This document shows, piece after piece, positions 40,372 to 44,853 of a stretch of 47,597 bases of DNA. The position numbers and the translations under genes were made by a program. The stretch is from assembly GCA_938021675.1 (NCBI GenBank), contig CALIFY010000060.1:1-47597 (forward strand), read 5' to 3'. This DNA comes from an uncultured Acidimicrobiales bacterium. GTDB taxonomy: Bacteria > Actinomycetota > Acidimicrobiia > Acidimicrobiales > SZUA-35. The stretch's first letter is position 1; each line of letters begins with the position of its first letter. The notes below the pieces were generated by a model. That model saw nothing but the letters and a program-made list of their open reading frames with translations. It had not been told where the DNA came from and ran no database searches.

Positions 40372-41406
40372 CTATCTAAAGACCGAGAGATCCCATTTCG
40401 GTCCGATGTGGCCGCAACCCTCACGCCCGATATCAACTCGACCGGGGCAGTCGGTTTCATCCCCGGCATCGTTGGCCGGGCCGTTGCCGCACTGGATGTC
40501 GTTGTAGACCGGCCGGCCCTCGATACCCGGACCGTCTCCGATCGCACCGCAGACCTCTTTGACCGTCTTCGTTCCGTCAGGAGTCTCCACGGTGATGTCG
40601 CCGATGGCATGGTCGAACGTCGTGGCGCAGTAGCACTTGTCGTCGACCGAGTAGCTGTCGTGCCAGTTGTTGCCCGGCTCCAAGCCGCTTACCGAAATGA
40701 CCTTGACGATGTCGGGGTGGGTACCCTCCGGATTCGAGTCCGGGGCCTCGGTCGTCGTCGGAGCCTCAGTCGTCGTAGTGGCCTCGGTCGTCGTAGTCGT
40801 CTCGGCAACCTCAGTCGTCGTAGTGGCCTCGGTCGTCGTAGTCGTCTCGGCAACCTCGGTCGTGGTCGTTCCCTCGATCACGACCGGTTCGTCGGTCACC
40901 TCGAACTCGAAGACTTGGCTCCCCAACGACGACCCCTGGCCTCGGTCTTCCGAGAACGCTTCGGCCTCGATGGTGTACTCGCCAACCGGTAGTCTCGCGC
41001 CTGCGAAATCCTGACCACTGTTCCCGAAGACCGAGTAGGGGGAGACGTTCTCCAAACGGTCGTAGCTGACCGGCCCGCTGACTGCGAACAACATGCTCTC
41101 TGCATCAGAAGGCGCACCGACGAAGTTGAACCCGTATTCCTCGTCTGCGACGTCGTCGAGTTCGATCGCCTCGGTGTCGAGCAAGACCGAGGTCACGATC
41201 TGGTCGGTGGAGGCGTTGATCACCTCAAGAGTTCCATCTAGGCCGTCGGAGCCCGGGTCGGCGCTCGAGGCGCTTTGCAGGAAGAGAAATCCGCCCACTA
41301 AGCCCACCGTCACCGCCAACACTGAGACGATGATCGAAGATCGTCGTCTCCGCCCCTTCATCTCGCCAGGCTCACGCCCGGCATCCGCCATCATTGGTAC
41401 TGACAT
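40372..41406 (-). CDS. Exported modular protein with six-cysteine C-terminal domain
   Basis: A 344-residue protein. A basic N-terminus (KGRRRRSS) leads into a helix (about 24-43) ending LQSASSA, a signal peptide or membrane anchor. Residues about 57-172 are a beta-rich domain (GTLEVINASTDQIV, YGFNFVGAPS, SYDRLENVSPYSVFGNSGQDF, LPVGEYTIEAEAFS). It is closely similar to the same region of the neighbouring PL7 protein. A Thr/Glu linker (about 180-222, with a 15-residue unit repeated) follows. The C-terminal part (about 228-344) has six cysteines (258, 260, 286, 306, 320, 331), and the stretch YNDIQCGNGPANDAGDETDC repays searching. I do not recognise that domain. The gene is oriented like, and lies downstream of, its paralogue. 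Confidence 0.75.
   Translation of the reverse strand: MSVPMMADAGREPGEMKGRRRRSSIIVSVLAVTVGLVGGFLFLQSASSADPGSDGLDGTLEVINASTDQIVTSVLLDTEAIELDDVADEEYGFNFVGAPSDAESMLFAVSGPVSYDRLENVSPYSVFGNSGQDFAGARLPVGEYTIEAEAFSEDRGQGSSLGSQVFEFEVTDEPVVIEGTTTTEVAETTTTTEATTTTEVAETTTTTEATTTTEAPTTTEAPDSNPEGTHPDIVKVISVSGLEPGNNWHDSYSVDDKCYCATTFDHAIGDITVETPDGTKTVKEVCGAIGDGPGIEGRPVYNDIQCGNGPANDAGDETDCPGRVDIGREGCGHIGPKWDLSVFR
40764..40853. repeat. 45-bp tandem repeat encoding the linker
   Basis: Two nearly identical 45-bp copies (40764-40808 and 40809-40853) encode two units of a Thr/Glu-rich 15-residue linker (AETTTTTEATTTTEV). A partial third copy follows. Such repeats change in length easily by slippage. Confidence 0.8.
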
Positions 41407-41491
41407 TCATTCTCCGTCCGTGAAAATACCGCATCAAACCCGCCACAGGCCGAATTCCGGCAGTCTATTCCTGTTCCTGTCCGGCTTAGCG

Positions 41492-41534
41492 ATTGCGTGA
41501 CAGGTCCGATCAACAGGCTCGACCGTCGGGTTCT
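41492..41534 (-). promoter_or_regulatory. Conserved upstream element, copy 1
   Basis: On the plus strand it reads ATTGCGTGACAGGT, six bases, AACAGGC and ends GGTTCT. Copy 2 at 43189-43231 matches at 34 of 43 positions with identical spacing. It lies 86 nt before the start codon (78 nt for copy 2). Read on the coding strand it contains two CCTGT motifs 13 nt apart. It may be promoter or operator, or just conserved by recent duplication. Confidence 0.45.
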
Positions 41535-41661
41535 GATGCTTACTCCCGATGCCGACTGCAAGACTAGCTCCTCTACCTTCGGGTTGAAGGTCGCTTCTCG
41601 TTCATTGTTGTTTTCCACTGCCTCTGTTCCGCTGAGGACAAAAATGTCGGCAGCGGAACGG

Positions 41662-41698
41662 CGACGACGGAAGGGCCGGTTCGACCCTTCCGTCGTCG
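41662..41698 (-). terminator. Strong terminator hairpin of the PL7 gene
   Basis: CGACGACGGAAGGG and CCCTTCCGTCGTCG are perfect 14-bp arms around a 9-nt loop, 22 nt after the PL7 stop. On the minus strand a TTTTT run lies about 20 nt further on. This is the strongest hairpin in the window. Confidence 0.7.
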
Positions 41699-41719
41699 AG
41701 CCTGTCAGCCGAGAGGCCG

Positions 41720-43111
41720 CTACCGGTGACTCACATCCAGGTCAAATATCTCAGCTTCGCCGTACGAAGCGCAATCTTCGCCTGCTACTTGTTTGTCTCC
41801 ATCGCACGCCGACTGGGTGTATGCCCCGACCCTGAAGTACGCGCCCGAGTACGCTTTCTCCAGAGTGTGGACCAGGTCGCCGTTGAAATACGTTCTGGTC
41901 ATACCGTTGGATACTTCCAGCCTCACGGTGAAGATCTCGCCTAGTTGATAGTTCGTATCGAGAGTTGGACCGTTGTCGCCATCGACTTCGATTCCGACGG
42001 TGTCACCCTCCACCCGAACGGTGAGGATGTCGTCATCGTTGTCGTGTATCTGAGCTACCACCAGGTGCGGCTTTTGCTCCGGCAACCGAGTTGCCCTCAA
42101 ACGCGTTTCCATCGAATGCGTGCCGATTGTCGATGCCCAAGATGCTTGACGACGACCGTCATCGGTCATCTCTCGTAGTTCAAGGCGGGGGTACCCCGAG
42201 CTTGACGTGGTCGCCCCACCCACATGTGCTTTGAATTGCACGTAGTCGCACCCTGAATTCGTAAACACACCAGGGAGAGAATAAGAAGAGAGACTCGGTT
42301 GGTAAATCTCTGCTGCCGTATTCGTGTTGCCATCGCCACTACCAGAATCGGTGGCGTAGGGAATCGTGAGTTTCCAATTCGTCAGGTCGATGACATCACC
42401 GGGTGTGGTGCACTGAGACGGCTCGACCGGTGGGTCGGCAACCTCTGGTGTCGACGGGGGCGGTGTCGTTCCCGGGGCCTCGGTCGTGGTGGTGACCTCA
42501 GGCGCCTCGGTCGTGGTGGTGACCTCCGGCGCCTCGGTCGTGGTGGTGACCTCAGGCGCCTCGGTCGTCGTGGTCGTCCCTTCGATGACGATCGGTCCGT
42601 CGGTCACCTCGAACTCGAAGACTTGAACTCCCAGTGAGGATCCTCTGCCTCGGTCTTGCGAGAACGCCTCGGCCCTGATGGTGTATTCACCGACCGGCAA
42701 TTCCGTGCCCCAGAAATCCTGACCGTCGTTCCCGAACACCGAGTAGGGCGAAACATTCTCCAAACGGTCGTAGCTGACCGGCCCGTCAACCCCGAAGGTC
42801 ATACTTTCGGCGCCGGAAGGGGCACCGACAAAGTTGAACCCGTACTCCTCATTCGACGGATCGTCGAGCTCTATCGCTCCGGTATCGGCCAACACCGACG
42901 CCACCACCTGGTCGGTGGAAGCGTCGACCACCTCAAGCGTCCCGGCCAGCCTGTCGGATCCCCGGGACGCACTCGATGCGTTCTGGAGGACCAGTAGACC
43001 TCCCGCCGCCAACACCGCCATCGCCGTCGAAGCGATGACCAAAGATCGTCGCCTTCGCACTCTCACCCCGCCCGACTCGCGCCCGACATCCGCCACCTTC
43101 ATTTCTGACAT
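41720..43111 (-). CDS. Exported PL7-family alginate lyase, modular
   Basis: A 463-residue exported polysaccharide lyase that should cleave alginate or a related uronan by beta-elimination. An N-terminal basic helix (about 18-48) is followed by the beta-rich domain (about 58-171) shared with the neighbouring 344-residue protein. A linker (about 177-232) carries three repeats of PEVTTTTEA. Residues about 237-462 form the PL7 jelly roll: DLTNWKLTIPY, the substrate strand YPRLELREM (Arg309, Glu311, Arg313), the catalytic AQIHD (Gln354, His356) and YFRVGAYTQS (Tyr425, Tyr431, Gln433). These correspond to the RxExR, QIH and YFKxGxYxQ signatures. Four cysteines (234, 288, 436, 447) could form disulfides. 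Alginate is mainly an algal or biofilm polymer, which suggests contact with seaweed. Confidence 0.9.
   Translation of the reverse strand: MSEMKVADVGRESGGVRVRRRRSLVIASTAMAVLAAGGLLVLQNASSASRGSDRLAGTLEVVDASTDQVVASVLADTGAIELDDPSNEEYGFNFVGAPSGAESMTFGVDGPVSYDRLENVSPYSVFGNDGQDFWGTELPVGEYTIRAEAFSQDRGRGSSLGVQVFEFEVTDGPIVIEGTTTTTEAPEVTTTTEAPEVTTTTEAPEVTTTTEAPGTTPPPSTPEVADPPVEPSQCTTPGDVIDLTNWKLTIPYATDSGSGDGNTNTAAEIYQPSLSSYSLPGVFTNSGCDYVQFKAHVGGATTSSSGYPRLELREMTDDGRRQASWASTIGTHSMETRLRATRLPEQKPHLVVAQIHDNDDDILTVRVEGDTVGIEVDGDNGPTLDTNYQLGEIFTVRLEVSNGMTRTYFNGDLVHTLEKAYSGAYFRVGAYTQSACDGDKQVAGEDCASYGEAEIFDLDVSHR
42477..42557. repeat. 27-bp tandem repeat encoding the PL7 linker
   Basis: Three copies of 27 bp (42477-42503, 42504-42530, 42531-42557), differing at one position, encode a nine-residue Thr/Glu/Pro linker unit. 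A truncated fourth copy follows. Confidence 0.85.
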
Positions 43112-43779
43112 TCCATGCTCCGTCTGTTCAAACCCGAACTACCCGCGCAAGTCAATGTACCCACAGGACGTTCATGTCCGACTCCGCCATTGCGTGACAG
43201 GTTAGACAAACAGGCGCGATCCGCAGGTTCTCCGACCCAGCCGCCAAGGCGTCTCCGCATCTCTGCATTTACGCCCGCAGCTTGACCCGATCGGCGATTG
43301 TTGCGACTACCGCGTCGGAGCCCGGCGGGTGAACTCCTGCGTTCGCGCTGACGCCACGTCGCCGACCACAGTCGACTCGCCGTTGGCCGCGAACTTGGTC
43401 GAGACCCCGACCGCCGCAAGCCAGGAACTTGATCGAAGTCAATCCCACCTCGGACCGAGACCCGAACCCGGTGAGCCGACCCCGACCCCGACCCCGAACA
43501 ACTTGCCTCCCAAACGGTTTTGAGCCCCGCCTACGGCACTACGGTCGCCACCCCGAGGCCGGGACGGGGTTCGCTCTTCCCCGAAGTGTCGGAGTTGCGA
43601 CGGCGGATCGACAAGCGCGGTGGGAGGTGACCACGACTGTGCACATCAGGCGAACCATCACAAGGAACGCCACCGAACCCGACGATGCTCGAGACCAACC
43701 AAATTGATTTGGAAGAAGACAAGCGTTCCAAAGTCACAGAAACTCAAGTTCTGGCTAAATGCGAGAACCCTACCGTACC
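43112..43779. other. Intergenic stretch, no gene recognised
   Basis: This 668-bp stretch contains no frame with recognisable features. It holds copy 2 of the conserved upstream element, and around 43470-43497 a short CCGACC repeat. The promoter of the PL7 gene must lie at the left end. Confidence 0.5.
43189..43231 (-). promoter_or_regulatory. Conserved upstream element, copy 2
   Basis: Same element as at 41492-41534 (34 of 43 positions identical), 78 nt before the PL7 start codon. The bases between it and the start are also partly conserved (TGACATTC and CTCCGTC blocks near the start). Confidence 0.45.
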
Positions 43780-44853
43780 CTATTCTACGGATCCATCGAT
43801 TTCATACCCAAGACCTTGAAGCCCTGACATCTTGCCGGCAACCACACCCATACCAGTAGGGCAGCCATGCCCGCTAACAACTCCAAGAGCCTTGCCGTCC
43901 CGGGTATAGACCGGCCCGCCGCTTTCTCCACCTGCACTTGGGCAAATATCTATTTGAAAGTTGCTAGACGTGACGGCAGTTATTTCACCACAACGAGTGC
44001 CGACAGTAAAGCTGCTGACGCAGGCTTCCATGCCAACTTCGGGTTCACCATATGAAGTTATCTCCACCTTGGCGCCCCAATCCTGGTCCACGACGTTGCC
44101 GTCATCGTCGAATATTAGAGTACGCTCAAACACAGCACTTTCAGGGCGCAAGTTGACCGGATCTACAACTTCAATCAACCCCAAGTCATAGAACTCGTCT
44201 CCGGCGTACTCTTCAAGGTTCAACTCGCTGAAAGTTTCGACTTTGTGATGCCAAAATACATGACGAGCGCCGATGGGCTTAACAGTATTCTCCCAACCGG
44301 TGTTGGGATCAAACCAGTTAGTACCAAAGGGCGAGTTCAACACAGGACCCACGATGCAATGCCCAGCGGTCGTGATGAATTTTTGCCCTTCTTTCTCAAC
44401 AAGAAATGATCCGGTGCAGCCCTCATTCCCATGAGGACCGATACTCTCTCCACCAAACCATTTCTGTGTCGGCTTGATAACTTCAGCCGAATGAGACTCT
44501 TCGAGTAAATCCCACTGAATAAGTGTATATTCGGCTATCAGGTCACAAATATTCGTCACCAGGTCATGATGCTTAGTGAAACCGTGACAATACTTTGCCG
44601 ACTCAGGCCCTTCCGGGTCTTCCCAATTCTCGACCTGTCCTGAGCGATCGTGGAGTTCAGTTGTGAGGTCGGCACAGTGTGGAGTTTGCCCTTCGAGGGT
44701 CTTAATCACAAGGATCGTCCCGTCGACATCCGCCTCGCAGATTCGATGGGGACCATCGTGCGCTTGGACTGGGACGACCGAGAACGCCAAAACCGACACC
44801 AAAATGGCGATCGCCAACCCCAACAACCAGCGACCGCGTCTCACTATCTTCAC
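43780..44853 (-). CDS. Secreted chymotrypsin-fold serine protease
   Basis: A 357-residue exported protease. The signal peptide (about 1-31) ends VVPVQA. Residues about 32-135 look like a pro-region. The protease domain has the triad His165 (ITTAGHC), Asp223 (FYDLGLIEV) and Ser311 (GGESGGPVY), with the oxyanion-hole context intact. A GRE-like surface VFWHHKVETFSEL lies between. Cysteines near the His and the Ser probably pair. No transmembrane or cell-wall anchor is visible, so it should be released. Base composition is lower in GC than in the housekeeping genes. A perfect palindrome lies just upstream of the start. Confidence 0.88.
   Translation of the reverse strand: MKIVRRGRWLLGLAIAILVSVLAFSVVPVQAHDGPHRICEADVDGTILVIKTLEGQTPHCADLTTELHDRSGQVENWEDPEGPESAKYCHGFTKHHDLVTNICDLIAEYTLIQWDLLEESHSAEVIKPTQKWFGGESIGPHGNEGCTGSFLVEKEGQKFITTAGHCIVGPVLNSPFGTNWFDPNTGWENTVKPIGARHVFWHHKVETFSELNLEEYAGDEFYDLGLIEVVDPVNLRPESAVFERTLIFDDDGNVVDQDWGAKVEITSYGEPEVGMEACVSSFTVGTRCGEITAVTSSNFQIDICPSAGGESGGPVYTRDGKALGVVSGHGCPTGMGVVAGKMSGLQGLGYEIDGSVE

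Follow-up and report, generated by a model that had tools for sequence, protein, structure and literature searches.

Tandem genes of an Acidimicrobiales bacterium join a shared acidic Ig-like front to a putative PL7 alginate lyase or to an unnamed six-cysteine domain

We analysed a 47,597-nt stretch of DNA from an uncultured Acidimicrobiales bacterium (the window), which is contig C60 of a 4.45-Mb assembly in 99 contigs that is 95.3% complete. Two open reading frames (ORFs) in the window encode putative exported proteins of 344 and 463 aa. The two proteins are 70% identical across residues 1–209 and divergent afterwards (BLASTP, E 2e-83); this span covers the N-terminus, a beta domain with a predicted immunoglobulin-like (Ig-like) fold and part of a Thr/Glu-rich linker. 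Taken on its own, the 117-residue shared domain is 81% identical between the two proteins, bearing out the near-identical front halves described in an earlier sequence-only reading. That reading had also called the N-terminus an anchor: an arginine-rich start and a hydrophobic stretch are indeed present, and both a signal peptide and a membrane anchor fit them. Beyond the linker the proteins differ, as had been described, with polysaccharide lyase family 7 (PL7, PF08787) at the end of the 463-aa protein and a six-cysteine (six-Cys) domain, without a Pfam family at cut-off, at the end of the 344-aa protein.

The C-terminus of the 463-aa protein matches PF08787 along the entire profile (positions 1–225 of 225; 113.7 bits versus a cut-off of 29.7, E 1.5e-32), and the nearest solved chains are those of AlgAT5 (5zqi, the closest, E 2.7e-58) and of a polyguluronate lyase (1uai). 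The active-site motifs of PL7 enzymes are RxELR, QIH and YxxxGxY, and the protein has RLELR at 309, QIH at 354 and YFRVGAY at 425. It shares the full-length domain and the motifs with these known lyases, but differs from them in that the PL7 domain sits behind an Ig-like domain and a Thr/Glu linker. The 463-aa protein is thus predicted to be an exported PL7 alginate lyase, with an export route and an alginate-cleaving activity that would follow from these features. The front of its gene is 72% identical to the neighbouring 344-aa gene, whereas the lyase part shares 73.5% identity, across 230 residues, with another PL7 protein of the genome, encoded on contig C78 (L143), which carries a hydrophobic stretch and a Thr/Pro linker and in which no Ig-domain match was found. 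Since the front and the lyase part have different closest paralogues, we conclude that the PL7 gene is, by sequence comparison, a chimera. The DNA encoding the linkers is repetitive at 40718–40891 and 42450–42596, with spacings of 45 nt and 27 nt, and is a possible site at which heads could recombine.

The shared domain is predicted to form a beta-sandwich (predicted local distance difference test score, pLDDT, 81.4; 11-row alignment). Structural neighbours of the model are mixed beta-sandwich folds (best Z 7.8), and the Big_7 domain B1 of Aquimarina CelAly (PDB 9KVU), at Z 6.7, is tied with many Ig and fibronectin type III (Fn3) folds. Weak matches to Big_7 (PF17957) are found in 4 of 16 copies of the shared domain (best E 1.5e-4). 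In the Pfam scan neither whole window protein matches Big_7 at E ≤ 10, and the copy from the 344-aa protein has no Big_7 match, only one to FlgD_ig at E 0.14. A profile of the shared domain aligns with an Aquimarina Big_7-type domain (hhalign, 95%) whose relative in the PDB is B1. We therefore call the shared domain a distant Big_7-like Ig domain.

According to the report on CelAly (PMC13235733), B1 binds alginate gel through a cationic flat face. The window domain, in its model, resembles B1 in being an Ig-like beta-sandwich. The alginate-binding face of B1 is reported to be cationic, however, whereas the Ig copies of the window are strongly acidic, with net charges between −17 and −22 according to where the domain ends are set; the four close copies in the same genome span that range. 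This charge argues against alginate binding of the B1 type, and we favour a role for the domain as a spacer or presentation module. Binding of polysaccharide through calcium is possible.

The sequence-only reading had proposed that the front is a platform that takes varied heads, and the rest of the genome agrees with this. A profile search finds six copies of the shared domain, five of which are strong by single-sequence search. Besides the two window proteins on C60 (Ig with six-Cys, and Ig with PL7), they comprise a protein on C79 with a PF14099-type lyase-like head, one on C92 with a right-handed beta-helix, one on C20 in which the order is reversed and the six-Cys domain precedes the Ig domain, and a Thr-rich protein on C32 that has the Ig domain at its end. 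A further candidate, C32:46680, was rejected as a chance match (E 0.19) in an aconitase-like ORF. The C79 head is 27% identical over 243 aa to a region of an Aquimarina protein that passes PF14099 (BLASTP, pairwise E 3e-13). Because Pfam and PDB searches with this head gave no match, and its hhalign probability against the lyase alignment is 1.5%, we label it PF14099-type and not a member of PF14099. The C92 head passes PF13229 (32 bits versus a cut-off of 25.9) and resembles the initial beta-helix of a six-Cys protein from Aquimarina (24% identity, pairwise E 3e-13). In the coding module that they share, the two window genes show a synonymous divergence (dS) of 0.85, and comparisons with C79 give 0.83 and 1.23; the ratio of nonsynonymous to synonymous divergence (dN/dS) between the Ig parts of the two window genes is about 0.15.

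The similarity extends into upstream DNA. An element said to match at 34 of 43 positions before the two genes was reproduced exactly, as the best 43-nt window of a longer stretch in which 48 of 62 positions (77%) are identical. The local alignment of the two upstream regions scores 57. Among 2000 Markov shuffles the highest score was 32, and the upstream region of the 344-aa gene scored at most 27 against 947 other window segments. The upstream region of the C79 gene aligns with that of the 344-aa gene (69% of 85 nt) and with that of the PL7 gene (72% of 36 nt, E 0.14); a comparable match is absent upstream of the C92 and C20 genes. From the three sites we derived a 24-nt core, GTCACGCNNTNGNNNAGNCGGACA, which occurs without mismatch exactly three times in the 4.45-Mb assembly, 64–74 nt before the starts of the three paralogues. 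The remaining 17 of 20 core matches carry 2–3 mismatches, and a reversed-pattern control gives 11 matches. The platform at the DNA level, upstream element included, was thus found on three genes only. Given that the element looks better conserved than silent sites, we infer that it is functional and not a mere residue of duplication; it would be a promoter or operator that co-regulates the three genes.

Table 1. Positions in the window of the two tandem genes, their protein domains and their upstream elements
Feature	Position	Strand
344-aa putative exported protein: hydrophobic N-terminus, Ig-like domain, Thr/Glu linker, six-Cys domain	40372..41406	-
344-aa protein, residues 1-48: arginine-rich start plus a single hydrophobic stretch of 19 residues (either anchor or signal peptide)	41263..41406	-
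344-aa protein, shared Ig-like domain, residues 58-174; beta-sandwich model, net charge -21	40885..41235	-
344-aa protein, Thr/Glu-rich linker, residues 175-228	40723..40884	-
344-aa protein, six-cysteine domain, residues 230-344	40375..40719	-
463-aa putative exported PL7 alginate lyase, N-terminal platform as in 344-aa protein	41720..43111	-
463-aa protein, shared Ig-like domain, residues 57-173	42593..42943	-
463-aa protein, Thr/Glu/Pro linker, residues 174-232	42416..42592	-
463-aa protein, PL7 domain (PF08787), residues 241-462	41726..42391	-
Upstream element of 344-aa gene; core 24-mer 41478-41501	41473..41534	-
Upstream element of 463-aa gene; core 24-mer 43175-43198	43170..43231	-

Near the pair lie genes for a trypsin-like protein (PF00089; window 43780–44853, minus strand) and a matrixin-like metalloprotease (PF00413; 46952–47572, plus strand). 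Rfam and tRNA scans of the window gave no matches.

The cysteines of the 344-aa protein are at 258, 260, 286, 306, 320 and 331. A scan of one genome per species (84,980 species) yielded 79 six-Cys loci, and we aligned 48 copies of the domain, from 46 of these loci together with the two copies of the window's own genome; a further alignment omits the truncated L107 and L108. Invariant in the 48 copies are W248, S251, C258, Y301, N302, C306, G307, P310, D316, E317, C320 and G335, and D250, D265, H266, Q305, N308, R323 and D325 are nearly so. C260 and C286 are jointly present in 41 rows and jointly absent in 7, and neither occurs singly, a pattern that fits a disulfide. All 7 rows lacking them fall within a single group of the tree, which has moderate support (88/79) and no star, and the loss was perhaps a single event.

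An AlphaFold model of the six-Cys domain (pLDDT 86.6; predicted template modelling score, pTM, 0.79) has four short strands and short helices. It has no fold match in the PDB (best Foldseek E 7.6), nor among 7 chains compared by VIA. Against PDB sequences, the best match of the six-Cys profile is unrelated (E 5.3), and the whole 344-aa protein has none at E ≤ 1; against viral predicted folds the best E, 1.3, is not meaningful. The sequence-only reading had allowed that the domain might belong to an unrelated known family, and our searches for one reached no credible candidate: no Pfam family was found at cut-off and no credible relative in NCBIfam. These family searches covered Pfam, NCBIfam and the PDB; CAZy/dbCAN lies outside them and may name the domain, and the missing matches do not prove that the predicted fold is new. 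DUF5789 was rejected as a chance match (6 of 48 rows, best E 0.0028; 22 residues of the window copy, below cut-off), as were nine other Pfam families seen in one row each (best E 0.0014). The domain was not found named in the literature searched, outside which most subscription papers lie, and the strings NDIQCGNGP, CGNGPAND and QCGNGP were not found in the full texts searched. CelAly offers a parallel in its domain UKD (PDB 9KVN), which is likewise an unnamed accessory domain; both occur in Aquimarina, UKD on algal-wall enzymes. That report (PMC13235733) describes UKD as a nine-strand beta-barrel, unlike the six-Cys model. Profile and fold searches of the PDB with the six-Cys domain gave no match to UKD; 9KVU was in the set searched, and the presence of 9KVN is unconfirmed.

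By title, the 79 loci comprise 34 from Aquimarina, 14 from Granulosicoccus or Granulosicoccaceae, 5 from Arenicella, 5 from Acidimicrobiales and 21 others, which include Saprospiraceae, Tenacibaculum, Myxococcota/Deltaproteobacteria, Microbulbifer, Marinagarivorans, Oxalobacteraceae and Verrucomicrobiales. By record, the phyla are Bacteroidota, Pseudomonadota, Myxococcota, Verrucomicrobiota and Actinomycetota; many of the loci are from metagenome-assembled genomes (MAGs), in which the taxon label of a single contig may be wrong. A survey of macroalgae lists Granulosicoccus as a core genus and Aquimarina as a dominant genus (PMC10233909); to judge by their names, many of the source MAGs may stem from that survey. 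In the six-Cys tree the Bacteroidota copies form one group, whereas the Actinomycetota copies are scattered over several places, one of them pairing with a Granulosicoccaceae copy at a starred node (100/98). This scattered placement suggests that the domain has moved between phyla, with the caveat that the rows are MAG contigs. Plasmid and phage records contained no match to the domain, and two further candidates, G056 and G065, were rejected as chance (E 0.001 and 0.009, with stop codons). Two side observations concern the architecture of six-Cys proteins. A Zetaproteobacteria-labelled protein, L050:5174–6226 (+), has two six-Cys domains in tandem. In L030, L033, L065, L067, L068 and L078, unnamed four-Cys repeats of ~45 residues stand before the six-Cys domain, their pattern resembling C..LxxAKxxYxxxCxxPRxDCDPxxGxWxCSSxxIG; they occur in both Acidimicrobiales- and Granulosicoccus-labelled proteins.

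The shared Ig-like domain was searched for in related genomes, as had been suggested, and it is not confined to the two window genes: 12 of 39 genomes of the family, the window's own included, contain it, in 25 copies (profile, E ≤ 1e-4). The six-Cys domain is rarer, in 3 of the 39, and both are present in 2. Among the 295 other genomes of an even phylum sample the Ig-like domain was found in none (E ≤ 1e-6, with up to 15 candidates per genome scored), and in an even sample of 296 class genomes the six-Cys profile (E 1e-3; best 15–16 candidates per genome) matched the window's genome only; both domains therefore look rare in the phylum. Outside the phylum, a Myxococcota-labelled protein has the identical order of Ig-like domain, linker and six-Cys domain. 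In Microbulbifer variabilis and a Saccharospirillaceae MAG, the Ig-like domain precedes a glycosidase-like part, with six-Cys on the same proteins; the Saccharospirillaceae protein passes DUF5060 and Collagen_bind_2, so varied heads also occur beyond the window's genome. A search of 33 genomes with six-Cys loci, drawn from 35 of the 79 loci (L035 and L036 were not among the genomes searched), found the Ig-like domain in six: Myxococcota, Microbulbifer, Marinagarivorans, Oxalobacteraceae, Burkholderiales and a MAG of the window's genus. The expected recurrence with carbohydrate-active heads was therefore seen, but some copies are on non-carbohydrate (HD-domain) proteins or terminate a membrane protein without a head. 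The HD_5-domain protein, L013:2–1537 (+), ends with a Thr/Pro linker and the shared domain, an unusual partner that we take to be of the HD-GYP type. In L035:7161–10871 (+), an ORF adjoining a six-Cys glycosidase-like gene, there are three shared Ig-like domains in tandem.

The six-Cys domain is a discrete domain that recurs beside domains of carbohydrate-active enzymes (CAZymes). We scanned 78 six-Cys proteins (77 from the loci and the window's own; E ≤ 1e-5). Among the 25 of 28 partner families listed, the most frequent are Por_Secre_tail (32), Big_7 (22), FRG1 (22), DUF7910 (21), and the carbohydrate-binding modules (CBMs) CBM6 (11) and CBM35 (11). FlgD_ig (10), F5/8C (9), PA14 (7), DUF5060 (6) and Collagen_bind_2 (5) follow, then CBM96, PF14099 and Fascin (4 each), beta-helix (3) and RicinB (2), with GSDH, CBM60 and GH16 once each. 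These counts are not independent, as many are from Aquimarina relatives, and CBM6/CBM35 and FRG1/DUF7910/Fascin overlap on one stretch. As a control, we took the longest non-overlapping neighbour ORF of 200–1200 aa at 71 of the 79 loci. No CBM, lectin or lyase partner family is among the 25 of 111 families listed for these ORFs, which include peptidase S9, kinase and TPR; rarer families are possible among the 86 unlisted, 16 of the 71 ORFs are one repeated peptidase S9 neighbour, and two (L035, L067) themselves contain the shared domain.

Twenty six-Cys proteins, chosen for diversity, were scanned individually. A CBM-, lectin- or CAZyme-type domain is present in 16 of them, a count that includes L097 (Big_7 and a weak Fascin) and L051 (DUF4832). 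Nine have a catalytic or catalytic-like domain (DUF5060, GH16, PF14099, beta-helix, GSDH or DUF4832), where we assume DUF5060 and DUF4832 to be glycosidase-like. One Aquimarina protein combines the six-Cys domain with a B1-related Big_7-type domain and a C-terminal part akin to 7zoh/7zoi, chains named GH18, which we presume to be CBM92. The partner kit of the Aquimarina six-Cys proteins is that of the modular algal CAZymes of Flavobacteriia (CBM6, CBM96, PA14, Por tail); the window proteins differ from these enzymes in being actinobacterial and short, and in having one common 5′ unit.

We consider it fairly probable that the platform genes encode secreted or surface-tethered modular proteins in which the linker presents heads that cut polysaccharide or a six-Cys head that grips it, three of them being co-regulated. 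One 5′ unit would be joined to various heads that attack or grip extracellular polysaccharide. It would comprise a control element in front of the gene, a signal for export or an anchor, the acidic Ig-like domain as a spacer, and the flexible linker rich in Thr and Glu. The PL7, lyase-like and beta-helix heads would cut. The six-Cys domain, presumably held by disulfide bonds, would serve as a targeting or adhesion module that binds a glycan of algae or of a matrix but does not cleave it. That it may act on polysaccharide had been suggested from the sequence, and its domain company, on which our reading depends entirely, points to a glycan-binding module that is probably non-catalytic: in 9 of the 20 proteins it stands beside a catalytic or catalytic-like domain, as accessory modules do.

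Several observations weigh against this explanation. The two Ig-like domains of the window are very acidic, unlike the cationic alginate-binding face of B1, and the copy on an HD-domain protein indicates that the shared domain is not restricted to carbohydrate enzymes. The shared domain is present in only 6 of the 33 searched six-Cys genomes, including one of the window's genus, and in the family only 2 of 39 genomes have both domains; the link between the two modules is thus not a tight one. The control with neighbour ORFs was unmatched for secretion, and many Aquimarina rows are closely related. Finally, on 11 of the 20 proteins scanned one by one no catalytic domain was recognised, which means that the six-Cys domain could itself be an enzyme, and its invariant or near-invariant residues include the polar D265, H266, Y301, N302, D316, E317 and R323.

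These last two points are also the case for the main rival explanation, which we judge unlikely. Here the six-Cys domain would be a small secreted enzyme with polysaccharide as its substrate, brought to its target by the CBMs on its proteins. The 11 proteins pair it with binding modules or linkers, and its core is conserved across phyla. However, a polysaccharide-active enzyme of ~100 residues would be unusually small, 9 of the 20 proteins possess a separate domain that is catalytic or catalytic-like, and the fold search with the six-Cys model matched no enzyme. Quite unlikely, in our view, is a purely structural or adhesive role for the six-Cys and Ig-like domains, as spacers or as surface protein–protein modules such as protease-resistant caps, unrelated to glycans. 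Both are found on proteins without recognised CAZyme domains, such as the HD-domain protein with the shared domain; the six-Cys proteins L032, L036 and L041 are mostly linker, and some Acidimicrobiales and Granulosicoccus copies follow the short Cys repeats. Yet the 78 six-Cys proteins often have carbohydrate partners, whereas the families listed for the 71 neighbour ORFs include none. An origin by plain tandem duplication, in which the 3′ end of the second copy was replaced and the upstream identity is a leftover without platform logic, would be compatible with any of these explanations and agrees with the adjacency of the genes and a shared unit reaching into upstream DNA, but is improbable as the whole account given that the upstream element retains 77% identity at a dS of 0.85 in the shared module, that a third paralogue on another contig and with another head retains the core, and that the paralogue closest to the PL7 half is a different gene.

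Returning to the modular platform with cutting and gripping heads, a bolder form of it can be proposed, which we hold tentatively and somewhat short of an even chance: the six-Cys domain would be a new family for glycan recognition, or a small glycan-active one, with its own disulfide-held fold, spread horizontally among bacteria of at least five phyla, many of them belonging to genera known on marine algae, and used here as an interchangeable head of a platform under one control element. Neither the PL7 head nor the modular logic is new, and the actinobacterial platform arranges known parts in a new way; the new part would be the unnamed six-Cys domain. It could offer a new means of recognising cell-wall glycans and would provide a label for many unnamed secreted proteins, and the joining of one 5′ unit to several heads illustrates module exchange within a single genome.

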